DNA of 64,000 nt, taken from positions 248,001 through 312,000 of the forward strand of contig QUOL01000008.1 in the NCBI GenBank assembly GCA_009761415.1. The letters are read 5' to 3'. The notes beneath the pieces are model-generated. The model had not been told where the DNA came from. It was given only the letters and a program-made list of their open reading frames with translations, and ran no database searches. Made by a program: the position numbers and the translations under genes. Below, in pieces: positions 22,865-50,645 of the stretch (its first letter is position 1; each line of letters begins with the position of its first letter). This DNA is from Sarcomyxa edulis (Eukaryota; Basidiomycota; Agaricomycetes; Agaricales; Mycenaceae).

Positions 22865-24475
22865 GTGCCCTTCACAAACTCACAATCGCACGACTACATG
22901 GCTGGATCGTCCAAAAATTTGCCAAAAATCCTCAATCCACCTCTATCGGAAAGAAACGCAAACGCCAACTCATCTCAGACGTCTTTGACGACAATCATAT
23001 TGAAAATACGGAAGACAGTGGCACCAAGACAACGACGAAGACGACAAAGAATCTCAAGCAAACTGAGGTTCAGAAATGTATAAAGGACGACTCCCAGTTT
23101 AGGTCCTCGGAAAATTCCCGTGCTAAAGGTACGCTCCTGAGCCACTCGCTCCATGATGTACTTACCGATTCCAGCTCTTGCCGAAATGTCTACACCAGTA
23201 GGTCTCTCGAAGCGCTCACAATTTAAACCTACTTTAAAAAAACACAGACAGAAACTCCCTTCTGGCGGTGACGACACGCAAGACAAGAAGGTCCGGAAGA
23301 AAATGAAGATAAATAAGGTTGTGAACGTCGAACAGAAGAAACCCAACCAGTCACCCGAGAAGCCGCGTCGTAGTGCGTCATTGAATCTACGCTCCTAGTG
23401 CTATACTCATACTGGCGTTTAGGTATTCTTCGTAATGCTGCAAAGGTTCGTTTCATCTATAGTGATCATCGCCATGAACTAGACGTTGATCACTCCTGTC
23501 GCCTACACAGCCAGAATTCTCTCAATGCTCACTCTCGACGAGCCTGGCGAAGGCGCATAAGCACCGACTGCTTCCGGATATCTATGGCGGCGATCTCAAA
23601 AAGCACGCTGCACAAGACGCGCAGGTTCTAGACACTTTCAAGAAACACCAATTCCCCGAGAACGCGATGGACGTTGTGCCGCTCCAGATGGATATTTTTG
23701 AGATTACAGTAGCAGTAGTGTTGGTTGCACGATCGGAAGACCCCGATGTACCACTAGGCGCGCGATCTGCATATTTCGTCGCAGCGTTTGCAGACGAAGA
23801 CTTCCGCCAGGTCGCAGACAGCTGCTACCGATCTAAATTCTTCATGGGTGTACGGAACCATCGTATGTCACTAAGTTCCATTATCTATAACGTTGTGTTT
23901 ACTCTGAATTCAGCCGTCCTTCGAAAAACGAACGAGAGTTCGTTGTAAGTATGATATGACAGTCGATTGTGCTTTTCCCGAATAACCTGTTACAGTTGAA
24001 ACTACCGATGAAGAAGCTTGAGCTTTCAGCCAAAGGGGGTTCCAGAAAGTAAGGGCTCTTTCCTTGATGAAATTTTGTGTTCACGGTACATCACAGACCT
24101 GGTCACTCTGTGTTACATTCCAGATCTTTCAAGGATCAGCGCCATCATACTATGTCATCTCCACGGTCAAAATTCATGAATTTACTAACCCTGGAGTTAC
24201 CTATCGCATCAAGCAGACCGAGACGTACAAGACACCCATACGTCCGGTTCTCGCCTCAGCTTCAACTACCTCGACGGTTCTTATCTAGGAGCTACTAGTG
24301 GAGTATTTGCGGGTCCTCTCCGAACGCACAACTATCCAGAGACTTGTGACTGCATTCAAGGAGGGTAGGGCATATTCGAAAAGAATTCTGTGGCCTAACA
24401 CATCATATAGGCCTGTACAAAGCGTATAGGATTGATTTGTTGAAGCCGGGGGAGAAAAGGGAGTAGGCAAAGGTG
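22865..24475 (+). pseudogene. CR-like gene copy A, short, damaged
   Basis: First member of the tandem family. The position homologous to the ATG of the other copies is GTG (22865). Extra bases in the AAAAATTTGCCAAAAAT stretch (22913-22929) shift the frame relative to GKKRKRQLISDVFDDN, so exon 1 is broken. Exon 2 (LSKRSQF ... GGDDTQDKKVRKKM), the microexon encoding ILRNAAK (23423-23445) and the header exon (LLPDIYGGDLKKHAAQD, about 23520-23865) are all open. After the header there is no P-loop exon. Instead, a fragment near 24190-24290 matches the nuclease-proximal segment of the full-length genes (YRIK...ETYKTP...LASASTTSTV). The middle of the gene, about 2 kb in the full-length copies, is therefore missing. 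It lies directly upstream of, and partly overlaps, the 5' end of the UNC80-like gene on the opposite strand. Confidence 0.75.
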
Positions 24476-24654
24476 GTCATGGACGTGATAGGTTCTGGCA
24501 TTTGCATGTCCGATTCCATCATGTATACGCTATGCCGCCATTTTTCTTCTCGTTCCGCAGTATGCTAGACTACGGAATACATTATCTTGAGCCTTGTAGA
24601 GGCCTACAAAACTACAGAGCTGCAATCCTAGTACAAGTGTGGCGTTTGTTGCCA

Positions 24655-24670
24655 TCCGGAAAACTCCGAA
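24655..24670 (+). promoter_or_regulatory. Palindromic promoter element of copy B
   Basis: TCCGGA-AAAC-TCCGAA, 77 bp above ATG 24748. Confidence 0.55.
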
Positions 24671-24747
24671 ATCGTCACTTCAAAACTCGCACGCGCCAAA
24701 TACTTCCGAGTCAAGCACCACCATCTTGCCACCATCACCAACACACC

Positions 24748-26270
24748 ATGCCACTCGTAAACGCACAGTCGCATAATTGTAGAACTAAATCGTCTCATCG
24801 TCGGAAATCCCCCTCTTATGGAAAAAAACGCAAATACCAATCTCTCTCGGACGTCTTTGACAATACCAATATTGAAGATGCGGAAGACCAAGATAGAAAG
24901 ACGACTACAAAATTCAAGAAGTCCAAGACGAACGAGGATCTGTGTACTCGCGGTACGCCACAGACTCATCCACTCCACGAGCCATCCATTAATTCGGGAA
25001 ATGCAACCCCTACGTCGACGGACTCCTCGAAAGGCTCGTGGTTTGTGTCTCCTGCCAAGGAACACACACAACAGAGTCCCCCAACCATCTCTGGCGGGGA
25101 AGACAAGGTCAGAAGGAAAATGAAGAAAATGAAGGTTGCGAAGGTTGAACGGAAGGGCTACCCATCTCAATCATCAAAGGAGCCGCGTCGTGGTACGCCG
25201 CTCGCCTACGATATTGGTGTTACTTATACTGATGTTGGAGTACAGGTATTCTTCGTAACACTGTAAAGGTTCGTCACATATAATCCCATCATCACCATTA
25301 ATTAGTCGTTGAGCATTTTTGTTGTCTACACAGTCAAAATTCTCTCGACGCCCACTATTCACGTGTTCTGCGTTTAAGGACCGACCGCTCCCGGATATCT
25401 ATGGCGACGATCTCGACAGACACACAGTACAAGACAAGAAAGTTTTGGACACTCTCAAATACCACCAATATCCGCTAGACCCAGTCAGTCCTATGCCGGT
25501 GGGTTTGCTTATGTGTGTGATTATTGAGGTAGTGTTGCTTGCAAAGCAAGAAGATCCACATATACCACTGAGGTCGGAATTCTCAGACGTCCGCACCGCG
25601 GTCAGAGACGAAGAGTTTCGAAAGGTCTTAGAGGCTTGTTACCGATCTGGATCTTATAGGGACATGCGCAATCACCGTACGTTACCCACACCATTATCAT
25701 TGATGAATCTAAAAACTCTGTATGTCAGCGATCATGCGAAAGATCAAAGTTCGTTGTAAGTATATCGCTCTCCTCATACAACTGGTGATTGATTACCTTT
25801 TTGTAGTTCTAGACGATTGTTGATGATCACAACATCTACGTGTGTGGGGCGATTGGCTGGGGCTCGTCAGTCACCGTGGAAATGGTAAGTCCTTCTCACC
25901 AGACGAGGTCGCAAAACGATGCTTCCCTCAACTTCGCCACCTGACAATAACTTATCATATTCATCCAGCTGGAGTGTCTTTGATCGGTTCATCACGACTC
26001 TTTCAGTTCAACCGCGATATAGGTGCAAACGACAAATGCTATAACTGCACACCAGACAGCGACCTATCTCACTAAATACATCCGCATCGCATCAAGATCT
26101 TCGAGCAGTCCCAAGCCTACCCCAAAAAGCAGCAGATATCTACGAAGTTTATGCCAGTGACTGCCTCGATAGAGGGTCTGGCATATCAGAAAGCAATCAG
26201 GTGACGCGATACACATGAGCCCATCTCTTCGTAGTGAATCCTCTGATCTGTGAAAATGGTAGGAAGAGAA
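24748..26270 (+). CDS. CR-like gene copy B, short header-type
   Basis: Exon 1 from ATG 24748 encodes a Ser/Lys/Arg-rich start and YGKKRKYQSLSDVFDN. Exon 2 has GGEDKVRRKMKKMKV and SQSSKEPRRG. The microexon encodes ILRNTVK. The header exon reads RPLPDIYGDDLDRHTVQDKK ... EACYRSGSYRDMRNHR, ending at the GTACGT donor near 25677. Downstream, a degenerate P-loop exon still contains RGNGKSFSPDEVAK (about 25875-25915). A further fragment (about 26130-26240) resembles the end of the nuclease domain at DNA level. The NTPase and nuclease cores are absent. Exons 1-4 are open, so a protein of roughly 230-250 residues could be made. It carries the shared palindrome 77 bp above the ATG. Function unknown; the basic clusters suggest nuclear targeting. 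Confidence 0.6.
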
Positions 26271-26499
26271 GGAGGCGATGGTTTTTGAAGGTGACATTTT
26301 TGTGTCTTCCCGTCATGTCCACACTTTGTCGCTGTTTCTTGGCTGTTTCTGTTACTGTTCTGGCTGGTTTTTCGCAGTACGCTACATCACGTACTAGCAG
26401 TTTCTTGACTCTGTAGAATTGTACCTGGACTCCAGCCACGCAACTACCTACATAACTGCAATCCCCAGATAGTGGCGTTTGTCGGGGTAATATCCATCG

Positions 26500-26515
26500 T
26501 TCGGAAAGCTCCGAA
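26500..26515 (+). promoter_or_regulatory. Palindromic promoter element of copy C
   Basis: TTCGGA-AAGC-TCCGAA, 82 bp above ATG 26597. Confidence 0.6.
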
Positions 26516-26596: not shown

Positions 26597-27790
26597 ATGC
26601 CATTCACAACCCCCAAAAAGCGGAATTTCATGGCTATATCATCCAAACTTCCGCAATCCACCTCTCATGGAAGGAAACGCAAACGCCAACGTCTCTCGGA
26701 CGCCTTTGACGGTAGTCATATTTCCGAACGCTATACGGACGACAGAGGCAGAAAGATAGCGAAGAAGCTCAAGCTAAACGAGGCTAATACAGATGTAGTG
26801 GACCGTTGCCACTCTCGGTCCTCTGGGGATCTATCTACTTGCGGTACGGGACTGAGCCACCCCTTTGACAATATATTGACTTGTATTGATTTCGGATTTC
26901 AGCTCTGGCTCTGGTCGAAACGTCTACGCAGACAAAGCCCTCATCATATAGGTCCCCTGCAAAGCGATGCAGACCCCGAAGTTCCACGAATGTCACTGAC
27001 GAGGACGACACGCAAGACAAGAAGGTCAAGGCAAAATTGGAGATGACCAGGACACCGAAGACTCACCCATCTCAGTCATCGAAGGAACCGCGTCGTGGTA
27101 CGCTGCTTATCTATGCGACTGCTGCGATACTCATCTCAGATTCTAGGTATCCTTCGTAATGCTCCAAAGGTTCGTTTCATGTCACTCATTAATATCGGCT
27201 AGCTTTTGACCTCTCGTGTCGTCTGCACAGCCAGAATTCTCACTAACCTCCACCACGACAACGTATATACAGCGACCGCTCCCAGATATATACGGCGACG
27301 ATCTCGACAAGCACGCTGCACAGGACAAGATAATCCTGGATTCCCTGGAGAGCGAAGGCATACCTGTAGATGCAATCGACCCTATACCGTTGTCCCTTCT
27401 TTACTGTATTACACTTGATGTGGTGGCGCTTGCAGAAGAGAAAGATCCCGACGTGCCATTGAAGTCGACAGCGAGCGCTATCCTCGGCGCGCTCAAAGAC
27501 GAAAAGTTTAGAGAGGTGGTGCACCGTTGCTATTGCATCAAATCCTTCAAGGATATACGCAACCATCGTACGTTACCCACCGCGTTCACAGTGTTGAGTC
27601 TATTGACTCTTGTGTTTAGCCATCCTTCGCATGTCAAGATTACGTTGTACGTATCTCAGTTCAATGTCGTTTCTCGCTACGATTGACCTTCTTATAGTCC
27701 TAGAACCGGTTGTTGGCAAATATTGAAACCCTTCACTTCGGTTGTGTCATTATGCTCCCGAGTTCTGATTCGGCGGAGGCGCGTTTTTCT
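26597..27790 (+). CDS. CR-like gene copy C, header-only
   Basis: ATG 26597 opens MPFTTPKKRNF and HGRKRKRQRLSDAFDGSH, then KIAKKLKLNEA. Exon 2 reads SSTNVTDEDDTQDKKVKAKL and ends in SKEPRRG. The microexon encodes ILRNAPK. The header exon (27270-27567) reads RPLPDIYGDDLDKHAAQDK ... HRCYCIKSFKDIRNHR. After one more small exon the frame runs into VLEPVVGKY and stops, with no P-loop or nuclease remnant before the next copy begins. The exons are open throughout, so the truncation is clean. It has the shared palindrome 82 bp upstream of the ATG. About 250 residues are predicted. Confidence 0.6.
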
Positions 27791-28071: not shown

Positions 28072-29200
28072 ATGCCATGCACAATCCCAAAAACGCGTAA
28101 CTGTATGGCCGGATCGTCTAAACTTTCCCAGGTCACCTCTCATGGGAGAAAACGCAAACACCAGGCCCTCTCGGACGCCTTTGACGACAGTGATACTGTT
28201 GAGCGTTATACGGACGACAAGGGCAGAACGATAGCAAAGAAGGTGAGGCTTAACGAGGCTAAGAAAGGTGTCAACGGTGACTACCAGTCACGGTCCTTAG
28301 AGGATTTGAACACTCGTGGTACGCTACCGAGCCACCCCCTGCATAATGTTCTGAATGAATTCGGATTTCAGCTCTGGTTGGAACGTCTACACAGACAGAA
28401 CCCTCATCATTTCGGTCTCCTACAAAGCGATACAGACTCCGAAGTTCCACGAATATCTCTGACGAGGACGAGACGCAAGACAAGAAGATCCAGACAGAAC
28501 TGCAGATAGAGAAGATTCCGAAGATTCACCCATCTCAATCATTCAAGAAGCCGCATCGTGGTACGATGCTCATCTATGCTACTGATGCTATACTCATGTC
28601 AGATTCCAGGTATTCTTCGTAATGCCGCAAAGGTTCGTCTTATATCAGTAATCATCATCATTGGCTGGTTTCTGACCTCTCGTGTCGTTTACACAGCTAG
28701 AACCTTCCCAGAGTCTACTATTCACGTCCCACGCAATACTGGACACACATCGCATACTCCCAGATCTCTTTTGGGGCGATCTTGAGAAGCACGCCGCACA
28801 AGATAAGGTGCTTCTGGCCTCCTTGAAGAGTCAGGGCTTCCCTGTAGACACAATCGGCCCCATACCGGAGTTCCTACTTCAGTTTCTAACCATCGAAGTG
28901 GTGGTGACTGCAGAAGATGATGACGCCGACGTGCCACTCAAGTCGACAATGACAGAGATACGGGGCGCGCTCAGAGATGAACAGTTCAAACAGGTGGTCT
29001 ACCATGGTTATTGGAAGAGATCTTTCAGGGATCTACGCAATCATCGTACGATTCTTACCGCATTTTCTGTGTCTATCCATTGACTGTCAATTTCAAGCCC
29101 TCCTCCGAATATCAAAAGTACGCTGTACGTATCTCAGTCCAATGTCACTTTTGCCACGATTGACCTTCTTATAGTCCTAGAACCAATTGTTGGGAAATTA
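28072..29200 (+). CDS. CR-like gene copy D, header-only
   Basis: ATG 28072 gives MPCTIPKTRNCMAGSSK and HGRKRKHQALSDAFDDSD, then KKVRLNEAKK. Exon 2 reads RLRSSTNISDEDETQDKKIQ. The microexon encodes ILRNAAK. The header exon (about 28697-29045) reads LEPSQSLLF ... HRILPDLFWGDLEKHAAQDK ... SFRDLRNHR. A short last exon ends in VLEPIVGKLY-like sequence. Very similar to copies C and E in exon 2 and header. The palindromic promoter element of the other short copies is not recognisable here. The hAT element begins in its 3' flank at 29279. Confidence 0.58.
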
Positions 29201-29270
29201 TATTAAGACCCTCCACTTCGTCTGTTACTTTGTATGCCCCCGAGATTCTAATTTGTAGATGATCGCGTGT

Positions 29271-29278
29271 CTTTCCAT
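29271..29278. repeat. Left target-site duplication of hAT element
   Basis: CTTTCCAT, identical to 32946-32953 on the other side of the element. Eight bp is the TSD length expected for hAT transposons. Confidence 0.9.
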
Positions 29279-29311
29279 AGGCCCCGGGAAGCTCCCACCT
29301 ATGTTTGTCGG
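29279..29311 (+). repeat. Left terminal inverted repeat of hAT element
   Basis: Begins AGGCCCCGGGAAGCTCC and ends ATGTTTGTCGG. Pairs with 32913-32945 in inverted orientation with four mismatches in the middle. Confidence 0.9.
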
Positions 29312-29842
29312 AAATTAGCGTTTTTGAGGGCGAAAAATTGGCCTGATCTTCGTCTGTTCTTAGCGTTTTTGAGGCCGAAAATCCGAGATGTTTGTCGGTT
29401 ACTAGCGTTTTTGAGACCATCGTGGGGGCTTTTTTTTTTTTTTTTTGAGAGCGAGCTTCGACGATCTGATGCAGAAATTACTCAAAAGTGTACAATCACG
29501 GTCCTGAAAACGTAGCATGGCCATAATTTGACCTAATTCATGCCGAATATGGAGTTTTTTCGGCGCGTGACACCATGTGACACAACCCGTCATGCGTGAC
29601 ATCTCTGTCCGCGATAGCAGTGTTGGCCTGACCTGGGTCAAAGGGTCAAAGGGGTCAATGACAAACTGGGTTGGTCAACGCTTGACCCGGTTGGTCAAAC
29701 TTTTTGACCCAGGCGATATCACGTGTTTGGGCAGATAAGATTAGATAGGACTTGTAAATTGTAAATTGTGATGCTCGTGAAGACCGTCGAGGGGAACATG
29801 TAGCGCAATGAAAATTTCTCTGTTCTGAACCTTTCCTATATC

Positions 29843-32612
29843 ATGACTCCTAAATCCATTGCCTGGGATCACTTCTTCACAGACAAATCAAAATATAAAA
29901 ACAATAACTACAATGTTTCGGCTTGGTGCAATCATTGCATCGACAACTGGATTGGGATTCAACAAGAATTAGATCAGGACAATGTTGATGATCCCACCCA
30001 TCTTTGCGACGTAGTACGAAGCAGGGCAGATCTTCATAAAGAAGGCAAGAATCAATTATCAAACCATTTTCGTGGCATAGTAATAAAAATCGTAACATCT
30101 TAACAGTGCTGCTCGAAGTACCCGCGGTCTGCGGCCAGAAGGACAAGATGTTGGCACATCTAAAAAAGTGCAATTTTATCCCAGCAGAGACCCTTGCCAA
30201 GGTGAAGCGAGACCTTCAAGAGCAAAAGGAAAACCAGCCTCCCGCTCCGAATGCGAGAAACACATCACTCACCGCTGCCACCAGCTTCTTCGCTTCTTCG
30301 GGAACATCGGGGCCATTTATGTCAGTTGGTGGTTCTCATAGACCCTTGAAAAGGAAGAGAACGAACCAGTTTGACTCCGATGATGCATGGGACGAGGCAG
30401 GACATATCGAGTTCTCCGAGGACTTATGCAGGCTATTTGTAGCATGTGGGATTGCCTGGAATGCAGCAGATAATCCCGAGATGCGAATCTTCCTCGAGAA
30501 ATGGATCCCTGGTGTTCGAGTTCCTGGCCGGCGTTCACTTGCAGGTCGGTTTTTGGACCGTGAGGTGGAAAAGGTAGAAAATCGGACAAAAGATCTAGTG
30601 GCAGGAAAAGATGGTACAATTCAGTGCGATGGATGGAAAAATGTTGCTAAGACTCCAGTTACAACATCAGTGATGACCGTGGAGAAAGAGGTAAGCTTCG
30701 AGAATCGATACAATGAGTGTTACTTACTTTTTTGGCAGCCATATCTTGTGCGAACGCATGATATGTCGGGAGAGCCTAAGACAGGTGATCGGCTCCTTGA
30801 GCTGGTAACGGATGACATGAAATACATGCAAGATAAATTTGGGGTACGCACCATTGCCATCTGTACAGATAACGGACCAGATGGGATGAAAATGCGTCGG
30901 AGAGCGCACGAGATATGGGCATGGTTGATTGTTCTCGTCTGTTGGGCACACCAGATGAATCTCGTTGTCGGAGATTTACTAAAATTGAAGCTTCCCTTTC
31001 TCGAAGCAATCCCTCTCAGCCTAGAAATTGTCAAATGGTTCAATAATCACTCGTTCGCCCTTGATGTCTTCCGAAAAGAGCAAAAACTCACGTACAGTGG
31101 CAAGGTCTACTCGCTCATCTTGCCAGCTTTGACCCGCTGGACCTGCCATTACCTCTCGAGTGTTCGCATCCTCAAGGTCACGAGTTCCCTTCAGACAGTC
31201 TGTATCCGCTATCGAGAGGAGCTGATAATGTGTGTTGGGAAGGAAAAGAGGTTGCAGGAGAAAGCAGCGGAGATTTTGGCAATCGTTAAGGACCAGTCCT
31301 TTTGGGCAAACATGATATTGTAAGTCAAGTTGTGCAGATTTGAATGCAGAGAAGGCTTGGTACTCACCGGAATATAGAGTGAAAATTGTTCTCGAGCCGC
31401 TCGCTATAGCTGCCAACATAACGCAAAGCTCGCACACGCGACTTGACCATGTTCTTCTCACACTCGGGAACCTATATCGCATCTATACAGATCCTACCTT
31501 GGACGATAGGATACGCAACCAGATTTTGGGGAGCCTGGAAAAGCGCTGGAAACAAGCGGATCAAGATGTCTTCATCGTCGCGGTAGTACTCAATCCATAC
31601 CTTCGGGGCCAGTGTTTCAATCGCCAAATCCTTACAGAAAATGCCCTCTACACGATCGTCGAGCGAGTTTTCGAACGAATATTCCGCCAGCAGGCCGATA
31701 TTCATTTCTTACAGGCATTCTCGGATTATTTCAAGAATGACCCGAGATCTGAATATTCGAAGGAGGCCATGTTTCTTGAGAAGATGAAGATGCTGTATGA
31801 GAGCACGGTACGTTATCAGTGATATCTGAGCACTCGCATACCACTCACCACACATATAGGGAGATGACATAGACCTTGTTTTTATCTGGCGCCGATGCGA
31901 CACTTTGGAAACGAGCGGCCGCAATGGCTTGGTCAAATTGGCGATACACGTTCTCAGCATTATCGCAAATTCGGGCGGCTGTGAACGCGTATTCAGTGAG
32001 TTTGGTATCACACACACGAAACGACGCAACAAGCTCTCACCCGAACGTGTTCACAAGACTAGTATTGTCAAAACAGCCATCCGACGAAGTCACACAGCTG
32101 CTGGCCTTCTCAAATCACGGAAAAAGAGGGCTTTCGGTGATGATCGCACAGCTGGTCCTCCAGATTCATCAGCGCCGGCATCTTCAGCTCAGGATAAGAC
32201 GAGCACTGACACGAACACTCTGGAGCTTCCTGACCCCGACGAGCATATCGCCGATTTTCACGATATTCAACGCGACTTGATCGACGACGCGAACTCGAAC
32301 GACGATTATACCGAATACGCCGAATCTATTCCTATTTTACATGCACCAACCTCAGGCTCTCAAGTTCTACGCCGCATCCCTCTCGAAAAATTATTCACAT
32401 ATCCAGAGCACTCTCCTGAAGGCACTGAGATAAACAATGGAGGGCTGGCTTTCTACTGGAAGGGGGGTCTTCGCAACCTGGAGAAAGAGTTGGCAGCGTA
32501 CGAGATGATGTATCAGACGGATGTTGCTGTTGTCGAGGTTCCGCCTTCGAGTCAGGCCTCCGGCCAGCCTGAGGGAGTCAGGAGTGAAGGTGGTGGTACC
32601 TTGGATACATGA
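29843..32612 (+). CDS. hAT transposase with BED zinc finger
   Basis: Cut-and-paste transposase. Exon 1 (from ATG 29843) carries the first half of a BED finger: WDHFFTD, then WCNHC. The next exon supplies GQKDKMLAHLKKC. The best join is a GC-AG intron (donor GCAAGA about 30045, acceptor about 30104). The catalytic region includes IQCDGWKN, then ICTDNGPDGM with a catalytic-type Asp, and CWAHQMNLVVGD, matching the C/DxxH-type block of hAT enzymes. Introns near 30691-30739, 31321-31377 and 31809-31859 keep the frame. The C-terminal hAT dimerisation block is recognisable as IIANSGGCERVFSEFG followed by THTKRRNKLSPE. An acidic Ser/Asp-rich tail follows, ending at 32612. The reading frame appears intact, so the element may be autonomous. 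Roughly 770 residues. Confidence 0.9.
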
Positions 32613-32912
32613 TGTAGTTGATTCATCGTTCTACGGTCTTTTACTACTGTTACAATACATGCTCCTTTACTGTTCAAATATTTTCGATATCTTCTAGCAC
32701 ACTGGCAGCACGTCCACATGCGGCAATACTTGCCTTATAGAGAATTTTCCACGGACCCTTGACCGGGTTGGTCAAGGGTCAACGCGGTTGACCCATTGAC
32801 CCCCCGAATTCTTGACCAACCGGGTCAGACCCCCGGTCAATGCCAGCACTGCGCGATAGCGTTTTTGAGGGCGAAATTCGGACAAATTTTAGCGTTTTTG
32901 AGGCAATTTTGG

Positions 32913-32945
32913 CCGACAAACATCTATAGGAGCTTCCCGGGGCCT
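32913..32945 (-). repeat. Right terminal inverted repeat of hAT element
   Basis: Ends AGCTTCCCGGGGCCT on the plus strand; inverted partner of 29279-29311. Confidence 0.9.
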
Positions 32946-32953
32946 CTTTCCAT
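32946..32953. repeat. Right target-site duplication of hAT element
   Basis: CTTTCCAT, the second copy of the 8-bp target duplication. Confidence 0.9.
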
Positions 32954-33219: not shown

Positions 33220-34400
33220 ATGCCATTCACGACCCCCAAAACGCGTAACTGCATGCCCGGATCGTCTGAACCTCTCCAGGTCACCTCTCATGGAAAGAAA
33301 CGCAAACACCACCTCCTCTGGAACGTCTTTGACGACAGTAATCTTACTGAGCGCCATCTGGACGACAAAGGCAAAAAGATGGCGAAGAAACTCAAGCCAA
33401 ACGAGGGTCCAAAAGGTGGAAATGGTGACTACCAGTCTCGGTCCTCAAAAGATCCATGTACTCACGGTACGCTACTGAGCCACTCCCTTCACCATATATG
33501 GACTGACTTGGGACTCGAGCTTTTGTAGGCACGTCTGAACAGCTAAAATTCTCGAAAGCCTCACTGTCTACGCCCTTTACAAAGATAAAAAGACCCAGAC
33601 TTTCCTCAAAGGTCTCTGACCAGGACGACACGCAAGAGGTAGACAAAGAGGCCAGGAAGATAAAGAAGATAAAGAAGGCTCCGAAGGGGAAGAGCTACCG
33701 ACCTCAGGAGCATCACGGTACGCCGTTCACCTATGCTACCGACAAGATATTAAACTCTCACCTCAGGTATTCTCCGAAATGTCGCGAAGGTTCGTTTCAT
33801 GCATACTGATCATTGTCATTGACCAATCGTTGACGCCTCGTGTCGTATATACAGCTTAAATCTTCACAGAAACCGCTTTCAGCGTGCCCTGCAATATCGG
33901 ACACGCATCGAATGTTTCCGGATCTCTTTGGCGGCGATCATAAGAAGCACATTGCACAAGACAATGTGGTTTTCGCCTCTTTGAAGAGAAAGGGCTTCCC
34001 TGTAGATATAATCGGCCCTTTCCAGGAGTTCTTCCTCCTATCTATTGTAGTCGAAGTTGGGCTGACTGCAGAGAAAGATGACTCCGACGTGCCACTAAAG
34101 CCGACAGTGACAGAGGTAATGGCTGCGCTCAGAGACGAAGAGTTTGCACAAGTGGTATACCGTTGTTATTGGATGAAGTCCTTTAGGGATATACGCAACC
34201 ATCGTACGTTTCTCATTGCCGCACTTACAATTTGACGTCAAATCGATTGACTCTTGAGCTTGATCTCTAGCTCTCTTCCGAATCTCCAAAGTACGCTGTA
34301 CGTATTTCAGTTGAATCCTTGTTGCCACCATTGAATATGTCCTTATAGTTCTAGAACCAAGTGTTGGAAAACATTAGGACCCTGTCACTTCGTTTGCATG
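33220..34400 (+). CDS. CR-like gene copy E, header-only
   Basis: ATG 33220 gives MPFTTPKTRNCMPGSSE and HGKKRKHHLLWNVFDDSN, then KKMAKKLKPNEG. Exon 2 reads IKRPRLSSKVSDQDDTQE with several KKIKK clusters. The microexon encodes ILRNVAK. The header exon (33855-34203) reads HRMFPDLFGGDHKKHIAQDN ... YRCYWMKSFRDIRNHR. It ends like C and D, without P-loop or nuclease sequence. No palindromic promoter element is recognisable; the hAT right end lies 275 bp above the ATG and may have displaced upstream sequence. The exons are open. Confidence 0.58.
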
Positions 34401-36640: not shown

Positions 36641-36938
36641 GCGTCCGCATACATCATATAGGCCTGTTCCATTTGTATGGAATGTGACTGATTTGTTTGG
36701 AGGAGGAAAAATCGCAAGACAAAGGTGGTCCTCATAAAGGTTTTGACGTTGGCATGTCCTAGTATTTCCATCATATCTACGCTATGCTGGCGTTTTTATG
36801 ATTGTTCTCGTCCTACCCTAGTTTTCCAGACGACATAATACATCATCTTGAGCCCGATAGAAACTTATCTCGACTGACAGAAATACAGAGCTGCAATATT
36901 TCTCCAGATTGTGGCGTTTGGCGAAAGAGTTGACTAAT

Positions 36939-37048: not shown

Positions 37049-38612
37049 ATGCCATCCACAACCTCCAAAACGCACAAGTGTCTGGCCAGATCGTCTACAC
37101 TTCCGCAATCTACCTCTCTTGGAAGGAAACGCAAACACCAGGTCCTTTCGGACGTCTTTGACGACAATGATACTGCTGAGCGCCATACGGACGACAAAGG
37201 CAAAAAGCTGTTCAAGAAGCTCAAAAAAAACGAGGTTCAGAGAGATGTAGTGGATCATTGTCAATTTACTCGCGGTACGGGACTGAGCCACCCCTTTGCA
37301 GTATATTGACTCGGATCGATTTCGAATTTCAGTTCTGGTCGCAACGTCTACGCAGACAGAACCCTTGAAAAGCTTACAGTCTGCGTCTCGTGTACAGATA
37401 GGCAAACTTCAACTCCACTCAGACATATTTGACGAGCACGATACGCAAGACAAGAAGGCCGGAAAGAAAATGGACACGACAAAGGCTACAAAGGGTCGCG
37501 CATTCCAGCCATCCAATGAGCCGCTTCATGGTACGTCGTCTATAGCCTAAGCTACTGACAATATACTCATTTCGCATCTCAGGTATTCTTCGAAACGTCG
37601 CACAGGTTCGTCTCTTAGATAGTTCTATTATTGACTCATCAATGATCATTCGTGTCATCTACAGATAGACTCCTCCGAACACCCGTGTCCTGCAAAACCA
37701 CTCAAGCATCGGCTACTCCCCGATCTCTTTCACGGCGATCTCGACAAGCACGCTGCACAAGACAAGCTGGTTCTGGAAGGCCTGAAGCGCCAAGAGGTCC
37801 CGCTAGATGTTGTCGGTCATGTGCCAAAGTATATGCTCTGGCCCATCATACTCGAAGTGACGTCGGTGATACGAATGGAAGACCCCCATGTGCCACTAAT
37901 AAGGTCATCTGTGGACATCTCTAATGCGATCCATGACGAAGGGTTCCAAAAAATTGGACGGGACTGCTACCGATCGAAGTCTTTCAAGGATATACGCAAT
38001 TATTGTACGTTCTCTATATAGACCGTTCACAGCGACGTATCTATCGACTGACTCTGGAGCTTAGCCCTCATCCGCATGCCCAAAGTTCGATGTATGTACC
38101 ACAGTCAGAATCTGCTCTTTTCACAGAATTGACTGTTTTTCTGTAGTTCTAGACGATTGTTAGAGATCAAATACTACCTCCTCGTTTGTGAAGCGATTGG
38201 CTGGGGCTCGCTAATCGCCCCGGAACGGGCAAATCTGCCCCTACTAGACGATCTTGCCAAGACGATGCTCGTTATGCTCTCAAATTTGCGAGTCGATAAT
38301 GAAGACGGTATGTCGTATACTTGGTGTGACTCCATCAGTTCTGACCGCGATGTAGCTGTGAACTTAATGCAATCGAAACTCACCACTAGATTTGGAAATC
38401 GGGATGATTTGTTAGATTTGGAGCTGATATGCAGGAGCTACTATACCGAAGTGTCTACGGCCATCCCTTCAACAAGAATATACCCTCAACTACCCCAACT
38501 GGATGTTATTCACTCGAGGTTTACCACTGCATCGATCGAGGCTAGGATATTGGAAGAGAATCATGCACACAATGGACGGGCCTGTCCACTTCGCACAAGA
38601 TTCGACTCATGA
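37049..38612 (+). CDS. CR-like gene copy G, short, internally deleted
   Basis: ATG 37049 gives MPSTTSKTHKCLARSSTL and LGRKRKHQVLSDVFDDND, then KKLFKKLKKNEV. Exon 2 reads GKLQLHSDIFDEHDTQDKKA. The microexon encodes ILRNVAQ. The header exon (37666-38005) reads RLLPDLFHGDLDKHAAQDK ... RDCYRSKSFKDIRNY. The P-loop exon (38157-38308) has one extra base against the full-length genes exactly at the Walker A codons, giving SLIAPERANLPLLDDLAK in place of SSGTGKSRLLDELAK. After it the sequence jumps to a fragment aligning with the nuclease end (TRIYPQLPQLDVIHS). Intact NTPase/nuclease function is therefore excluded, while the header remains. The header part is almost a duplicate of copy H. Confidence 0.58.
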
Positions 38613-39778: not shown

Positions 39779-42700
39779 CTATGAGGACCGTGTAGCTGCT
39801 CCTGCTGCTCCTGCTGCTTTTCCCCCTCGCCCTCGCCCTCGCCCTCGCCCTCTCCCTCTCACCGCCCTCCCTCTCCCCCGTCCCGTCCGTCCCCCCCGTC
39901 CCCCCCGTCCCCCTCTTCCCCCGGCATCCCCCGTCTGCTCATCTTCCTGCTTCTCTTCCTTCTTCTCTTCCTGCTTCTCTTCATCTCCCGACTCCAATAG
40001 ATTAGTAAAACCCCAAGCGAAGTGGACACGCTCAAATGCTGTACCGGGCCGAGTAATTCTTCTCTGGTATCCTTGACCCTCTGTCACCCCAGTGTCATAA
40101 GAATCTGGGTAAATGCGCTCTAATTGGAGTAGTTGCGTGTAGACACGATTGCTCGCTTTTGGGATGACCTTGAACACTTCATCAGTGGCTCCTGCACAGT
40201 AGACATCATAACATGTAAATCTGGCCGGTCGTCCCGCTTGCCGCGTAAGGTGCCGGGGTACGGGAGGCTGCTGCACAGCAACGACTGTCGAGGTAGCTGA
40301 AGCCAATGCAAATACCATACGTATGAGAGGCGTCTTGAATGTCTCTGTCTCCTTGTAGAACTTGATGCGATATGGATCCATACGATGGAACAATTCGTTG
40401 TCTGGTTTGCCGGTATAGCTTTTGTCGTTCTTCACCTATATCGAAGTCAGAATTCATGTATCGGTGGTTCTTGAAGTGAGTACATACCTGGATGAATATG
40501 GCAGACACGCTGTATCGACCGAGAGCTATGTCCCAATAGGAGAAGGGCAGGAGAAGATCTATAGCGTCTTGGTTCATCGCACATATGATACCATGGCCGC
40601 GAATCAGCGCTAGCCACATTAATCCCCTATTGATCGCTTTCGGGTCGTCGAGTGTAACGAAATGGTTGAAGTGCATCCGCGCTTCTGCGAAACTCTCTTT
40701 GAAGGTCCGCATATCCAATGCGCCTGTGTCAGGCGGAGGCATAGGGTCGTTGAGGTCGTCCTTCTCGTCCTCCGGATATTTCCGGTCATCATATGGTTCC
40801 GTAGGTTTGGTTGGTAGCGTCGAAGAGACGGCAGGTCTGGCCTCCATAACCGAGGTGTAATGGGGTTCGCACAACAACTCCTTGAGGAAATCTGTCACTA
40901 AGAACGAATTGTCCTCGTACACCTTCTCGGGCTCTTTGAACACGGCATCACGCGCCAATGTGACGAGAGCTACAGACGCTAACTCTCCGCGGGGCCCTTT
41001 GCTCAAGCCGGGTTCTTGTAGTTCACGAAGCAACTCGAGAGGGACATCGAATGGGTGTGTCCGCATTATATAAGCAGCAGCTTCGGCGAGGAGAGGCTCA
41101 GATGGAGCATCTGACACAATGCGATCGAAGTTCTCGTCGACGGTCATGCACATACGCAGGTGGCTTTCGATTTGTTGCCTTTCACGATCCGTTGCTACCC
41201 GCTCAGGGGTGAACTGGATACCTAAACGGACGGCTAGGCAGGCTGCAGGACAAGCGATTGAATTGTCAAAAGCGGTTTCCCGTCAAAATTGGGCCCCCAC
41301 TTACCCAATATTTGGTTGCGTGTAAGCGTGGTGAGATGTTTCAAACTGGGCACCCCCATAAGTTTGCAAGCCGCAAATTCAAGGAGGTCTGCCAAGGTGA
41401 GTGGTTCTTCCGCGTCTTCCAACCAAGCGGAGAACCTGGTAGAGTAAAGTCAATCACGGTAATGGGAACGATGGCGGGCCACTCACAGCGGACGGCCGAA
41501 TCTAGCCATGAAGAACAGCGACGCAACGTCTGAAAGTCGAAACCGTTCCGAGTCTACCTTCGGAGCCAGCTGATCAAATCCGAGTTCTGTAAAAGGCGGG
41601 AACACTTTCAAAGATAGGTCGACCAATCGGCCCGAACTTTCTTCGCTTGCAGGACGATTGAACTCCTTGATTTTCCCTGTGGTTGTGAGCCATGCGGTGA
41701 AAATAGGCCTATCCACGATAATTCGAAGTGCATTCCGTATCGCAAGGAAAATTATTGACCCCTCTGTGTCCCGAGAGTGCGCTTCATCGAATGATATGAT
41801 GGCCAAAAGTCTCTTGCCATCGGCTTTGGGATCAAGCGATGATGATTCCTCCAAGATTGCCTTCTCCAATTTGATAGCTTCGCCTTGGAGAGTAACCTCT
41901 TTGTCTGAAGTGATGATTATGAGCCGTCTGCATGAAAAAAAAGACGGATCTGTATATCACCTTTCTCTGGATCCGTGACAGTCACTCGTTGTGTTGGTGA
42001 CTTGGTGTGGAGTCCGCCTGGTCCGATGAAGATGAGCCATCTGCACAAAGAAAGGGGATGCGTGTATTACACTCGCCTCGCTCTGTCGTTGTTGATGTTG
42101 CTGTCGCTTTTGCTGTTGTTGTCCGGCTTGTCTCCTGCGTCTTGCCCTTTTCTTCCTTTCCCTCTTTCTTCGACTGGATGAGATATTCCGATAGCTATGA
42201 TGCATGATCAGTTAGGGGCAGTTGTGCAATATTGCACAGAATGAACGAACCTGTTTGGTGCGCGCAATTACTCTGTCATAGAACGCTGTACGAGGGGCTC
42301 CTTGACTCTCATAACCTTGGCCATAAGTCATCAAGAGACGGAACTTCTCGTGAAGCTCCGAGGGTAGGTCGTATGAGGGACCCAAAAAGGCTCTCAAGGT
42401 TTGATCGATGTTCTTCAGAGTATCGGTAGTGATCTCAAATAGTGCAGCGAGGAAAATCTGGATAAGGACCTGAGCCTTATTGATTTTCTCTTGGAGATTT
42501 TCTGTATCCGAAACAAACTTGACGACGACTTTCCTTATCCAGTTTCGAACGTTTCTATCCGGGGCTGGAAATCCTGCAGTCGGGATGGGGATGTGAGCCA
42601 TGGAACACGGGAAACCTGAACTATGCAACCTACCGTCTTCATCATCAGGGCGCAAGTTCAAGGAAATATTGAGAATCATTTTGGCAATCTCGTCTAGTAA

Positions 42701-43448
42701 GCGGGATTTGCCCGTTCCGGATGATTGGAGGATATTAACGGATCGAGTGTATGGTCGCCGGACGAGCTGGTCCTGGCCTTCCAACATATAATTCCGTAAA
42801 AGATCCAGAAATATTTGTGCAGTTTTTCCAACATAGTCGCGAGACCATGACTTCACGGTGGCTAAGGTTGCCAATGAGTTTGTGCCACACAGAAGGGGAA
42901 AAAAAGCTTACCTTTTTGACCAACTACGCTTTGTTTTGGAACTAGTGAGTTAGAAGAGTTGAGTAACTCGCACAAGAGAAAGGGAGGGATCTACTTACAG
43001 ATGATATCTCGATTGACTCGAAAGGCCGCTAAAATTCAGATCAGCTTCATCCATTGTAAAGATGGACATGGTTCAGTAACGTACAGGCATTACGTATTTC
43101 CTTGAAGGACTGAGATCTGTAACAACTCTTTACAAGCTGGCGTAGCGCTGCGTCGTTCTGAAGCATGTGTAGAATCCTTTCGCCACTTATTGGGCTTAGG
43201 CCATTCACTAGAACCTGCAACATTGTCATCACAACGACTTGGCAGATGTACAGCGGAAGAGCGCCGACAACGTCCAGAGGTACTTCCAAAGCTACCAATC
43301 GTGCCACAACCTCCTCGTCCTCTGCTCTGTGCTTATCATCGTCATCGCCAAATATATCAGAGAAGTGTTGTCGTTTATTTGTATTAGCTTCAGGAGACTG
43401 AGAACGTCTGCGTTTGGATGATTCTGCGATAGGGTTTTGAGAAGACAT
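39779..43448 (-). CDS. Full-length CR-like protein J: header, P-loop NTPase, nuclease, RG tail
   Basis: Predicted nuclear effector/toxin-like protein of the Crinkler/RHS-type (CR) class. ATG at 43448. Header exon: SKRRRSQSPEANTNKRQ, FSDIFGDDDDKHRAEDE, ending in KSCYRSQSFKEIRN. Two 30-nt microexons follow (43028-42999 and the next, encoding FPKQSVVGQK). Then comes the NTPase: ATVKSWSRDY and Walker A SSGTGKSRLLDE. After several exons and a basic Gln/Arg linker there is Walker B IISFDEAHS with downstream WLTTTGKIKEFN and FPPFTELGFDQLAPK. The C-terminal domain has GLSKGPRGEL, RGHGIICAMNQDAIDLL and SAIFIQVKNDKS, a PD-(D/E)XK-like arrangement with Asp and QxK. The tail is acidic Lys/Glu, then RGG/GRG repeats. 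About 1,100 residues, no stop or frameshift seen. Closest paralogue is K. Confidence 0.85.
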
Positions 43449-43675: not shown

Positions 43676-44840
43676 ATCGTACGTATAGAATAATGACTAT
43701 CGAAGTTTTAATCTTCTCCAACGACCGAGTCGGAAACTATAGAAAACATAGTCAGTTGTCCGAGAAGAACATAAGTCGGACTGATATACATACAATGAAC
43801 TTTAGGGCAGCGGATGAGGGCTGAATCCGAAAGTCAATGAATAGATCTCGATGAACGGTCTAGGGAACGTACAATAATTGCGCACATCCTTGAAAGACTT
43901 CGATCGGTAACAGTCCCGTCCAATCTTTTGGAACCCTTCGTCGTGGATCGCATTGGAGATGTCCACAGATGAACTTATTAGCGGTACATCGGGGTCATCC
44001 ATTCGTGCCACCGACGTCACTTCGAGTATGATGGGCCAGAGCATATACTTTGGCACATGACCGACAACATCTAGCGGGACCTCTTGGCGCTTCAGGCCTT
44101 CCAGAACCAGCTTGTCTTGTGCAGCGTGCTTGTCGAGATCGCCGTGAAAGAGATCGGGGAGTAGCCGAGGCTTGAGTGGTTTTACAGGACATGTAGATTG
44201 CGGGTGTTCGGGGGAGTCTATCTGTAGATGATACGGATGGTCACTGATCGGTCAATGATAAAACTATCTACAAGACGAACTTGGGCGATGTTTCGAAGGA
44301 TACCTGAGACTCGAGGTTAATATATATCATCAGTAGCGTAGGTAAGTAGCGCACCATGAGGGGACTCCGTGGATGACTGGGACGGGTGGTCCTTTGGAGC
44401 CTTATTTGGCGTCATTATCTTCCTGACCTTCTTGTTTTGTGTGTCGTGCTCGTTGAAGCTGCTTGAAGGAAGTAGGCGTCTGTGTTTATTTGCAGGAGAC
44501 GCAGACCGTGAGCGTTTCGAGGAGTCTGTAGACGTGAGAGCTGAAGTCCAAAATTTAACAATACATCGTAGAGTGGACAGGTCTTTAACGTACCGTGAGC
44601 GCACAATTCTTTTGAGGAACGATAGTGATCCTTTACACCTTTCTGAGCCCTTTTTGGCTTAATCTTCCTCGTCGGTTTCGTCGTCGTCTTCCTGCCTTTG
44701 TCTTCTGTATCTCCAATATTACTGTCGTCAAAGACGTCTGAGAGGAGTTGATATTTGCGTTTCTTTCCGAGAGATGTGGATTGCGAGCGTGTGGACGGTC
44801 CGGCTCTGCAGTTGTGCGTTTGTGCGTTGGTGGATGGCAT
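43676..44840 (-). CDS. CR-like gene copy H, header-only
   Basis: ATG 44840 gives MPSTNAQTHNCRAGPST and LGKKRKYQLLSDVFDDSN, then RKTTTKPTRKIKPKRAQK; the frame is open further upstream to 45044. Exon 2 reads SSKRSRSASPANKHRRLL and SFNEHDTQNKKVRK. The microexon encodes ILRNIAQ. The header exon (44220-43870) reads RLLPDLFHGDLDKHAAQDK ... RDCYRSKSFKDVRNY, and is nearly identical to copy G. After a small exon (PSSAALKFI) the last exon runs through FPTRSLEK and stops. There is no P-loop or nuclease. It shares a 556-bp divergent intergenic region with copy I and lies immediately upstream of full-length J on the same strand. Confidence 0.6.
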
Positions 44841-45396: not shown

Positions 45397-46470
45397 ATGC
45401 CATCTACAATCGCACAATCGCACAACTGTAAAGTCGGACCATCTACGCGTCGTCGATCTATATCCCTCGGAAAGAAACGCAAACACCGACATCTCTCAGA
45501 CGTCTTTGACGACAATGATATTGAAGATACAGAAGACAAAGGCAGAAAGACGACGAAGAAGTCTCAGAAGCTCAACTCGAGCGGGGAATCGCATACTCGT
45601 GGTGCGCTACAGAGTCTCCTACCCCAAGAGTATCAATTGAGTCTGACATGCAGCTCTCACGTCTACAGAATCCTCGAAACGCTCACGATCTGCGTCTTCT
45701 GTGAAGACACACAGACAACAACTCCTTTCAAATGTCTCTGACGGGAAACATCCGCAAGACAAGAACGTCGAGAGGAAACCGAAAGTTGCGAAGGTTGAAA
45801 CAAAGGGCTACCAATCTCAGTCATCCCTGGAGCCATGTCGTGGTATGCCGCATATATATGCTACTGATGCTTTACTAACTCTCAATCTAGGTATTCTTCG
45901 TACGGCTGTAAAGGTTTGTTTCAGATATAACAAATCTCACCATCGACTAGTCATTGACCACTCATATCGTCCACACAGCCAGAATCCTCTCAACGCACGG
46001 CGGAAGCGTATAAACATCGAACGCTTCCAGATCTCTTTGGCGGCGATCTCGAAAAGCACGCTGCACAAGATGCGAAGGTTCTGGACGTACTGACGGATTA
46101 TGGCCTTCCGGAGAACGTGATGGCCATTGTGTCGCCATTGGTGTACTTCCTTCAACTTGCATCTGTAGTGGCGTTGGTTGCACAAACGGAAGACCCCGAT
46201 GTGCCATTACGCATGCAGCCTATCAATATCGCCGCGGCAATAAGAGACGAAGACTTCCGCAACGTCGCAGACAGCTGTTACCGATCTAAATCATTTATGG
46301 GTATACGGAACCATCGTACGTGACTGATTCGCATCATCTACAACAACATGTTAACTCTGAAGTCAGCCATGCTCCGAAAATCAAAAGTTGATTGTGAGTA
46401 TGACAGTCGACTCTGTTTCCCACCAACCATTAATCGTTCTTCTGCAGTCCAAACGACCAGTGGAGAAGCT
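45397..46470 (+). CDS. CR-like gene copy I, header-only
   Basis: ATG 45397 gives MPSTIAQSHNCKVGPST and LGKKRKHRHLSDVFDDND, then EDTEDKGRKTTKKSQK. Exon 2 reads SSKRSRSASSVKTHRQQ and LLSNVSDGKHPQDKNV. The microexon encodes ILRTAVK. The header exon (45980-46317) reads RTLPDLFGGDLEKHAAQDAK ... DSCYRSKSFMGIRNHR, closest to copy A in its middle part. One small exon and a short tail follow. No NTPase or nuclease sequence is found before gene K begins. Exons are open. It is divergent from copy H across a shared promoter region and directly upstream of full-length K, mirroring the H-J pair. Confidence 0.6.
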
Positions 46471-46749
46471 TGAGTTTCTCTTCCTTAGCCACCAGTTTTC
46501 ACAATAAAGTTATTAACTCATGCGATTTTTGTGCGAACCCTTCATCCAAATATATTTTGTTTTTTTTGCAAACGCGCAGCTTAGGCCAAAGTCTCCACCT
46601 CTTGGGACAACGGTCTCTTCTGTTCAGGTGAAATTCCTTATCGATACAGATAGAACGCGCGTATCTTGCTTAAGTAAAGACTGAGAGCCTGAGAGCCTGA
46701 GACGTGTAATATTGGGTGCCTCATTTGGTGGCACACACTGTTGCAGCTG

Positions 46750-46854: not shown

Positions 46855-49800
46855 ATGTCTTCTCAAACTCAAAATACGAACGCAGAGCTCGGACCCAAAT
46901 ATAAACGCAAACGGTCGTCATCTCCTGCAGAAACAAGTAAACGACAACGCTTCTCGGATCTATTCAGCGACGATGAGCACAGGGCACAAGACAAGACAGT
47001 TTTAGAGTGGTTGGAGGTGATGGCCCTACCTATACCTTTGGTCGGCGATCTACCGAGGTTCGCCTCCTACAATATCGTATTCACAGTGGTCCTTGTTGCA
47101 CAAGAGGCGAATCCCTTGGTGCCACTCACGAGAGGACCCAAAGTCCTCAACAGCATGCTCTCAAATGAAGACTCCCTCGAAGTTATCAAAAGATGTTACA
47201 GATCTAAATCCTTTAAGGAGATACGCAATCATCGTACGTTAGTGTTTTACACGATTCATTCCGATAGTCCTAATTATTCCCGATTCCAGCTGACGTTCGA
47301 GATGTTGACAAGGTCATTGACCGTCAAACTATTTGTATGTTATATCACCCTGTTTTTACCCGAGTTACTCATTTTTGCACCTCGACAGTCCCGAAACAGA
47401 GCTTGGATGGGCAAGGAGGTTAGCAAATCTTTCCTCTGTTTGTGTGGCACAACTTAACAGCGAACCTTCAGCCACCGTGAAGTCATGGTCTCGAAAGTAT
47501 ATTGGCAACACTCCAAATATATTTCTGCAGCTGTTGCGACAACACGTGAAGGAAGGTCAGGACCGCATCCCCCGGCCATATTCTCGATCTATCAATATCC
47601 CACAATCGTCCGGAACGGGTAAATCGCGCTTACTAGACGAACTGGCAAAGATGATTCTCGTAATTCCCGTAAACTTGCGCCCTGATGAACAAGACGGTAG
47701 GTTGAATGATTTGTGGCTCCCCGTGCTCTATATCTGATATCTTGGCTACAGGATTTCCAGCCCCGGATAGAAATCTCCGTGATTGCATAAGGAAAGCTGC
47801 CGTCATTGATGGTTCTGGTTCAGAAACACTTCAGGAGAGAATCGACAACGCTCAGGTTTTCATCCAGATTCTACTCGCTGCCCTATTCGAGACGACTAGC
47901 GATACTCTGCTAAACATCGATAAAATCTTGAGGGGCTTTCTAGGCGACTCATGCGACCTACCTTCGGAGATCCATGGGAAGTTTCGTCTCTTGATGACTT
48001 ACGGTCAAGGTTATGAAAGTCAAGGAGCCCCTCGTACAGCGTTTTATGATAGAGTAATTGCGCGCACAAACCAAGTTCATTCGCTCGTATGCACAAGTGT
48101 CTCTGTTATTGATCATTCATCACAGCTCTCGAAATGTGCGACACCGTCGAATGAGACAAAGCAAGGAGAAGAGAAGAAGACGCAGGAGATAGGCAGCTCA
48201 ACGAAAGCAAAATCAAAAGCAACGGCGAACGAGCAAGGTGACACACACATTCCCTTTCCTTGCGCAGACAGCTTAACAAGTCTTCGTCGGACCAGGCGAA
48301 CTGCTCAAGTCACCAACACGACGAGTAACTGTTACAGATTCAGAGAAAGGTGATACATGCATGTTGTCTTTCCTCATGCAGACGGCTCATAATGATAACT
48401 TCAGACAAAGAGATTAGTCTCACAAACGAAGCCATCATACTGGAGAAAACAATTATAGCCAAGTCATCGCGCCTTCTCACTCATAAAGAAAGGAAGCTCT
48501 TGGGGATTCTCTCGTTTGATGAAGCGCACTCTCGTGGCACAGAAGAGTCAATAATATTCCTCGCGGTGCGGAAGGCACTACGAGTTATCGTGGATAGAGC
48601 TTTTTTCACCACATTTCTGACAACCACGGGGAAAATAAAGGAGTTCAATCGTCCTGCAAGCGAAGAAAGTTCGCTCCGATTGGTCGATCGATCTTTCAAG
48701 GTGTTTCCGCCTTTCACAGAGCTCGGATTTGATCAGCTGGCTCCGAAGGTAGACTTGGGACCATTGCGGATTCGAGATGTCGCGCGAATTCTGTTTATGG
48801 CCAGGTTTGGCCGTCCGCTGTGAGTGGCCCCTTATTGTTCCATCCCCGTGATTGGTGCTACTGACACTACTTTACTTCAATAGGTTTGCTACTCGGTTGG
48901 AGGAGGCGCAAGGATCGTACACCTGGATAGACATTCTTGAATTCGCGGCTTGCAAACTGATGGGGGTGCCTAGTTTGAAACACTTCAGGACGTTCACACG
49001 CAACCAAATAATTGGTAAGTGATGGCTCGCACCTGACAAATATTCGATACTGACAATCCCTCTCTTTTCTTCCAGCCTGCATGATCATCCGTTTGGGTAT
49101 CCGGTTCAGCCGTCAGCGTGTGGCTACGGACCTCGAAATGCAACAAATCGAGAGCCACCTGCGTATGTGCATACACATAGACGAGAATCTCGAATCTATA
49201 GTGTCAGATGCTCCATCCGAGCCTCTCCTTGCAGAAGCTGCTTCCTATATGATGCGGCGATACTCATTCGATCTCCCTCTCGAGTTGCTTCGCGAACTAC
49301 AAGAACCTGGTTTGAGCAAAGGGCCCCGCGGAGAGTTGTCATCTGTAGCTATTCTCACATTGGCGCGTGATGCCTTGTTCAAAGCGGGCAAGATGTACGA
49401 AGACACCTCGTTCTTGGTGACGGATTTCTTCAAGGAACTATTGTGCGAACCTCATTATACTTCCGTCATGGAGTCCATACCTGCGGTTTCTTCGACACTA
49501 CCAACAAAGCCTCCGAAGTCATACGAACGGAAATACCCGAACGACGAGAACGACGACCTCGATGGTCATATGCCTCCGCTTGAGGAAGGCGAACCTGATA
49601 TGCGGACCTTCAAAGAGAGCTTCAAGAAGTCGCGGATGCACTTCAACCACTTCATTACAATCGACGACCCAAAAGCAATCACTCGAGATGTAGTATGGCT
49701 GGCGATGGTTCGCGGCCATGCCATCATATGTGCGATGAATCAAGACGCTATAGATCTTCTCATACCCTTCTCCTATTGGAACAGAGCTCTTGGGAGACAT

Positions 49801-50645
49801 GATGTGTCTGCTATATTCATTCAAGTATGTATTCGATTCGTCCGCCGCGAACCCATTTGTTCTGACTTACATATATTCAGGTGAAGAATGACAAAAGCTA
49901 TACCGGCAAACCAGACGACTACCTGTTTCATCGTATGGATCCGTATCGTATCAAGTTCTTCAAGCAGAACGAAACCTATAAGACCCCTCTCATACGCATG
50001 GTTTTCGCGTTGGCATCGACTACCTCGACAGTTGTTGCCGTGCAGCAGCCTCTAGTACCCCATCATGACACGCGGGAATCGAGAAAATTGTCCAGATTTA
50101 CAACTTACGATGTCTGGTGCGCGGGAACGACCAATGAAGTATTCAGGGTCATCCCCAAAGAGAGCAACGGTGTCTACGCGCAACTACTCCAAATAGAGCG
50201 CGTTTATCCAGAGATTTATGACGCTGCATCGACAGAGGGTCAAGCATATAATAGAAGGATCATGCGTCCCAATACAGCACATGAGCCTGTCCATTTCGCA
50301 TGGGCTTTCACTGATCTTTTGAAGGAAGAAGAAGAAGAAGGGACTGAAGAGGCCTCCGGAAGTGCAGGAGGAGAGAAGGACGGAAAGGAGGCGGAGGAGG
50401 CGGAGGAGGCGGAGAAGGGGGAGAAGGGGAAAAGGGGGGAGAAGGAGAAGAAGGCGAAGAAGGCGAAGAAGGCGAAGGAGAGAAAGGAGGGGAAGGAAAG
50501 GAGGGAGGAGGCGGAGGAGGTGGAGGAGGTGGAGGAGGCGGAGAAGGAGAAGAAGGAGAAGAAGGAGAAGAAGGCGAAGAAGGCGAAGGAGAGAAAGGAG
50601 GGGAAGGAGGAGGGGAAGGGAAAGAGGAAAAGTAGGGAGGAGTAA
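46855..50645 (+). CDS. Full-length CR-like protein K: header, P-loop NTPase, nuclease, Lys/Glu tail
   Basis: Same class as J. ATG 46855 gives KRKRSSSPAETSKRQRFSDL and FSDDEHRAQDKTV; the header ends KRCYRSKSFKEIRNHR. Two small exons follow, the second encoding FPKQSLDGQG. NTPase: ATVKSWSRKY, Walker A SSGTGKSRLLDELAK, FPAPDRNLRD and MTYGQGYESQGAPRTAFYDR. After a Lys/Ser/Thr linker comes Walker B GILSFDEAHS, TTTGKIKEFN and FPPFTELGFDQLAPK. C-terminal domain: IVSDAPSEPLLAEA, RGHAIICAMNQDAIDLL, SAIFIQVKNDKS, HRMDPYRIKFF. The tail (50,320-50,645) is an almost pure Glu/Lys/Ala tract encoded by a GA-rich run, different from J's RG tail. I see no lesion. The C-terminal half looks about 80% identical to J while the header is far less similar. 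Frame choice in the GA-rich tail follows the upstream frame. Confidence 0.85.

Follow-up and report, generated by a model that had tools for sequence, protein, structure and literature searches.

Among the closest described counterparts of the genes considered here are the Crinkler-RHS-type (CR) proteins of the NTPase + REase class, in which a variable header, which may be alpha-helical, is followed by a nucleoside triphosphatase (NTPase) and a restriction-endonuclease-like (REase) module (Zhang et al. 2016, as reviewed in PMC5289972). Our subject is a cluster of eleven header-bearing genes in Sarcomyxa edulis, lying in a stretch of 64,000 nucleotides (C39:248001-312000, where C39 is contig QUOL01000008.1; hereafter the window) of a genome that was searched as a whole (G000, 35.6 Mb in 40 contigs). 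Two of the genes, J and K, resemble CR proteins in having a variable header followed by a predicted NTPase and a putative restriction-endonuclease-like module. However no ubiquitin-like/LFLAK header was found here, and header-only paralogues, which make up the other nine genes of the cluster (A to I), are absent from the CR account as far as the sections cited here extend (PMC5289972).

Three other systems are similar in part. The wtf genes of S. pombe include toxic full forms and partial paralogues that share sequence with them, a likeness in how the systems would work (PMC7032740). In the NWD2/HET-S pairs a STAND-type ATPase has an N-terminal region shared with the product of its neighbour, but there the toxic part and an amyloid motif belong to the partner (PMC3321046), whereas here it is the full-length protein that holds the nuclease, and the shared part models as helical. 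The SPOK spore killers have a nuclease-like domain thought to damage DNA, but, comparing by description, killing and resistance reside in one protein with a kinase in place of the NTPase (PMC9972908).

We suggest, tentatively, that the Sarcomyxa locus may be a fast-evolving tandem array of one gene family, in which the short proteins act in trans on the full-length ones by way of the header. J and K would be complete proteins with a header, an AAA+/STAND-like NTPase and a PD-(D/E)XK-like nuclease, predicted to act as nucleases in the nucleus, and the nine short genes would have lost NTPase and nuclease, kept the header and have two header-like modules in front. The header would be a contact domain through which the short proteins bind the full-length proteins, or the ligand that both share, and as inhibitors or adaptors they would restrain the nuclease or tune its activation while the header diversifies. 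An inhibitor or adaptor role seems the most likely one for header-only proteins, and the suggestion of the sequence-only reading, that these copies could be regulators, decoys or immunity-like partners, is the most attractive reading of them. The precedents for such control in trans are analogies. CRN8 forms dimers, and its inactive form suppresses the active one in a dominant-negative manner (PMC3426532); wtf genes that encode an antidote only have sequence in common with the poison that they counteract (PMC7032740).

The eleven-member cluster proposed from the sequence alone is borne out, as repeats and tblastn place eleven header exons in the window, those of A to G, I and K on the forward strand and those of H and J on the reverse strand. 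The gene models are as follows.

22921-23999, forward: A, short gene; header exon 23511-23862
24748-25823, forward: B, short gene, 284 aa; header exon 25334-25676
26597-27726, forward: C, short gene, six exons, 285 aa; header exon 27231-27567
28072-29206, forward: D, short gene, six exons, 288 aa; header exon 28697-29045
33220-34377, forward: E, short gene, six exons, 290 aa; header exon 33855-34203
35009-36181, forward: F, short gene, six exons, 298 aa; header exon 35600-35972
37049-38163, forward: G, short gene, six exons, 276 aa; header exon 37665-38004
39779-43448, reverse: J, full-length, 11 exons, 1036 aa, K-type architecture with RG-rich tail; spliced model
43708-44840, reverse: H, short gene, 286 aa; header exon 43873-44221
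45397-46473, forward: I, short gene, 268 aa; header exon 45979-46315
46855-50645, forward: K, full-length, 11 exons, 1075 aa; spliced model

The models of J and K are intact and both carry SSGTGKSR, FDEAHS and IFIQVKN, as had been claimed, with the motif residues conserved in 54 homologues. In K the header is exon 1 and is followed by the P-loop NTPase (SSGTGKSR at K197-204, FDEAH at K427-431), the nuclease-like module (D798 and Q821-K823) and a K/E-rich tail. J, in which one intron is GC-AG, has a dN/dS (ratio of nonsynonymous to synonymous substitution rates) of 0.35 against K by counting. The C ends differ in type of low complexity, K having a 9-bp-repeat K/E-rich tail (50366-50650) and J an RG-rich one (39779-39990). 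Both N-termini are basic and resemble a nuclear localisation signal, from which the two proteins are probably nuclear; no signal peptide was apparent in either by eye, no predictor being run.

A family search with K 140-970 gave 60 proteins at E <= 0.001 among 7997 candidates scored, the best (E = 5e-120, covering 98% of K 140-970) being P0001 of Amanita muscaria (35%). J and K align with these relatives over nearly their whole length, with P-loop, Walker B and D...QxK kept. Almost all named members of the 60 are called "hypothetical" and 59 lack a precomputed Pfam domain; the named homologues of K are from species that we take to be Agaricomycetes. Within this Agaricomycete family, which has next to no annotation, J and K are unexceptional members, and they differ from their relatives in sitting among header-only paralogues. 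Short header proteins do occur in Amanita, where they look like first exons or split gene models; the 14 short proteins found (E <= 1) were set aside and are not counted for this reason (P0066 and P0002, for example, have neighbouring locus numbers).

The header, P-loop NTPase and nuclease architecture read from the sequence is supported at motif level, and for the NTPase to some extent by predicted fold. In an alignment of 56 rows (J, K and P0001-P0054, counting rows with a residue at the site) the NTPase residues are kept in 49/49 (GK), 53/54 (Walker B D) and 48/54 (E), and those of the nuclease motif in 53/56 (D798), 54/56 (Q821) and 53/56 (K823), J and K having all of them. The predicted fold of one homologue resembles AAA+/STAND ATPases with a middling Z. 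Motif and strand order of the nuclease module, which was not modelled or searched alone, fit PD-(D/E)XK, and on the question of a nuclease fold the profile gave no PDB chain at E <= 1.

With regard to the Crinkler label given to the cluster, residues 1-982 of K have no Pfam match at E <= 5, and PF20147, the ubiquitin-like LFLAK header of Crinklers, has no match at E <= 1 in the nine short proteins or the 54 homologues. Four matches above cut-off outside the cluster (C34:842054, C34:1730296, C40:1250615 and C40:1251070) serve as positive control for this search. The header itself models as an all-helical domain (pLDDT 82.4), for which no PDB counterpart was found. The label is thus unsupported, there being no PF20147 match and a helical model, and as judged by profile and model the header is not the Crinkler ubiquitin-like domain.

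The nine short copies have one exon-intron layout in the DNA alignment and fit six-exon models of 268-298 aa (the count for A starting within exon 1, and that for B including the unspliced intron 1), with a stop in exon 6 in every case. Canonical splice dinucleotides are present at 89/90 positions, the exception being the first acceptor of B, but this count is partly built in because the sites were placed by homology. Ahead of the header the short proteins carry two modules, M1 and M2, and profile comparison gives probabilities of 89% for M1 with the header, 94% for M2 with the header and 95% for M1 with M2, which the basic composition may inflate. GTACG donors follow exons 1, 2 and 4 in 8, 5 and 7 of the nine copies respectively. 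M1 and M2 look like partial duplications of the header exon, and A to I look like genuine genes and not mere fragments. The earlier description of them as retaining mainly the header was right in that they bear it, but they are six-exon genes with two further modules upstream.

The end of H is 259 bp upstream of the start of J, and that of I 381 bp upstream of the start of K, each pair on one strand. With such close spacing one might suppose that the short "genes" are 5' parts spliced to distant NTPase-nuclease exons, H into J and I into K for example. We regard this as very improbable, since all nine short models stop in exon 6 and J and K have a start of their own in common, ATGTCTTCTCAAA.

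Several short genes are followed by remains of the catalytic part.

24202-24417, forward: behind A, decayed nuclease end, stop inside
25829-26192, forward: behind B, a piece also present in the P-loop-exon relics behind F and G, followed by nuclease sequence interrupted by a stop
36140-36695, forward: behind F, decayed P-loop-exon and nuclease stretches, stops inside
38173-38323, forward: behind G, P-loop-exon stretch, one frame still open, Walker A lost

The short gene G stops ahead of its relic. These relics show that at least A, B, F and G descend from full-length ancestors, and the header-only status first given to A to I holds for the genes, which lack NTPase and nuclease, but not for the DNA behind four of the nine.

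Nor is the local array the whole family, as the sequence-only reading had it. A tenth short copy (C39:226-227 kb) lies some 21 kb ahead of the window and some 44 kb from the array; it is counted as header-only because no NTPase or nuclease match is listed near it. On the unlinked contig C3 a header-only copy, with no NTPase behind its header, lies about 0.7 kb upstream of a full-length gene on the same strand, to which it is 68% identical (dN/dS 0.39). In a tree of 20 headers, in which 8 of 17 inner branches are unresolved and three Amanita short proteins are included under their own label, the short copies on C39 fall into a single clade (100/99) and C3_short joins C3_full (98/96); a single origin of the header-only form occurs in 0% of 200 bootstrap trees. 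From these two groupings header-only forms arose at least twice.

In the genome as a whole this J/K/C3 subfamily has 14 headers found and three full genes, with no intact NTPase behind 11 of the 14 headers, whereas in the sister C38/C5 subfamily each of the 10 headers is matched by one of 10 P-loops and no copy is header-only (0/10). These counts are lower bounds and leave out relatives on C15 and C36. Each of the three full-length members found in the J/K/C3 subfamily is immediately preceded, on its own strand, by a header-only copy (H before J, I before K, and the C3 pair). Among public proteins a profile search with the short proteins found two only, both inside the short clade: P0061, which groups with B (100/99) and is identical to it at 94 of 116 aligned positions, and P0062, which groups with A, I and the 226-kb copy (97/99).

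The relics can also be taken another way. Duplication and truncation may be frequent in the family, and the short genes by-products of birth and death whose header exon set serves a separate function that has nothing to do with J and K, nuclear or DNA-binding for example. The catalytic relics behind A, B, F and G fit this, as do the header-like modules, which are basic with a KKRK-type stretch, and the long branch that parts the short clade from J and K in the header tree; fragment exchange with birth and death is described for Phytophthora CRN genes (PMC3726527). However, the J/K/C3 subfamily is the only one in which header-only copies were found, and each of its three full-length genes has one immediately upstream. 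We consider this account possible but on the whole doubtful.

Two further arrangements may be recorded. A second array at about 823-914 kb of C38 holds nine full-length header-NTPase-nuclease relatives, and its segments at 833-837 kb and 848-851 kb give the same scores but face opposite ways, as an inverted duplication would produce. At C39:454069-454404 there is an isolated nuclease-end fragment, 65-67% identical to K and open over 132 aa, with no header near it among the matches listed.

The short genes have kept their reading frame. Over 36 pairs pooled, gap runs are in multiples of three in 203/244 cases (83%) in exons 1, 2 and 4 against 59/283 (21%) in introns, evidence that depends less on homology-placed sites than the splice-dinucleotide count does. 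The header frame is open in all nine copies, with pairwise dS mostly near 1. Under neutral substitution the product of the nine open-frame probabilities falls from 3e-7 at 0.2 substitutions per site to 5e-13 at 0.5, which overstates the case in that the copies are taken as independent but share ancestry, G and H above all. Maximum-likelihood estimates of omega are 0.69 in the header (2dlnL 11.3 against an omega of 1) and 0.80 in the N-terminal modules (2dlnL 5.6). By counting, pN is below pS in 55/55 header pairs of A-K (median w 0.49) and in 36/36 N-terminal pairs of A-I (median w 0.62), although the pairs are not independent. Windows of 15 codons have pN/pS values between 0.48 and 0.94, with the peak in mid-header and no value above 1. 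These values, with the divergence of header and introns given below, indicate a protein whose frame is kept and which is changing fast.

Exchange between copies may also be seen. The headers of G (37561-38016) and H (43861-44325) are near-identical inverted copies, 95% over 331 nt, with a header dS of 0.08, whereas upstream of the header the two genes have diverged to the usual extent (pS 0.37). Such a mosaic suggests gene conversion.

If the short genes were decaying pseudogenes only, with open frames left over from recent duplication, one could understand the modest omega values, the disturbance of A and B, the relic tails and a header divergence near that of introns. However the header frames are open in 9/9 at a dS mostly near 1, contrary to the neutral simulation, splice sites are kept and gaps preserve the frame, so that we find this explanation quite improbable and give simple pseudogene fragments low odds.

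There remain several points that weigh against a role in trans for a maintained set of short genes. A is disturbed by frame-breaking gaps: because of an 11-nt insertion the usual ATG is not in frame, so that the exon-1 start is uncertain and the model starts inside exon 1, and the frame shifts close to the C end; the gap count omits both of its frame-breaking gaps (in exon 5, and in exon 1 before the modelled start). B has lost the acceptor of intron 1, yet its frame is open across the intron. Mean pairwise divergence is 0.355 for exons, 0.392 for the header exon and 0.398 for introns, so that exons nearly match introns and constraint must be modest. On C3, 12 of the 16 assignable amino-acid changes fall on the C3_short branch and 4 on C3_full (22 of 38 being unassignable), which suggests relaxed constraint on C3_short. 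Adjacency of short and full-length genes is partly expected from tandem duplication alone, and there is no clear pairing by sequence, G having the lowest dN of all short copies against J as well as against K, with H and I not far off. Lastly, P0061 and P0062 may each represent just one exon of a longer gene, since the gene calls at their source may ignore splicing.

The array also contains a possible poison together with short paralogues that share its sequence, and thus recalls selfish elements in which a killer is paired with a suppressor. J and K would then kill nuclei or spores without the locus, and the short genes would be antidotes like the antidote-only wtf genes, which do exist (PMC7032740), or SPOK; killing by SPOK1 requires the nuclease-like domain and damages DNA (PMC9972908). 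We judge such an element improbable. A bolder proposal is that the header-only paralogues are dedicated, repeatedly evolved antidotes of the header-NTPase-nuclease proteins, making a basidiomycete toxin-suppressor system whose antidote, of three modules and diversified in the array, comes from the toxin's own N-terminal domain; this we think unlikely.

The cluster is interrupted between D and E by a hAT-type element (29279-32945) with 17-bp terminal inverted repeats and an 8-bp target duplication, CTTTCCAT, at 29271-29278 and 32946-32953. It has a hAT dimerisation match above cut-off and a DUF659 match below its cut-off.

A search of open-licence papers found no title describing header-only paralogues of the J/K family. 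NTPase + REase proteins with varied headers are known, and what is new is the kept, twice-arisen header-only copies. The J/K family occurs in many Agaricomycetes, and a subfamily that keeps header-only beside full-length genes offers a handle on how fungi coexist with their own predicted nucleases. The named pairs, H-J, I-K and that on C3, are the places to look directly for the inhibitor or adaptor role.

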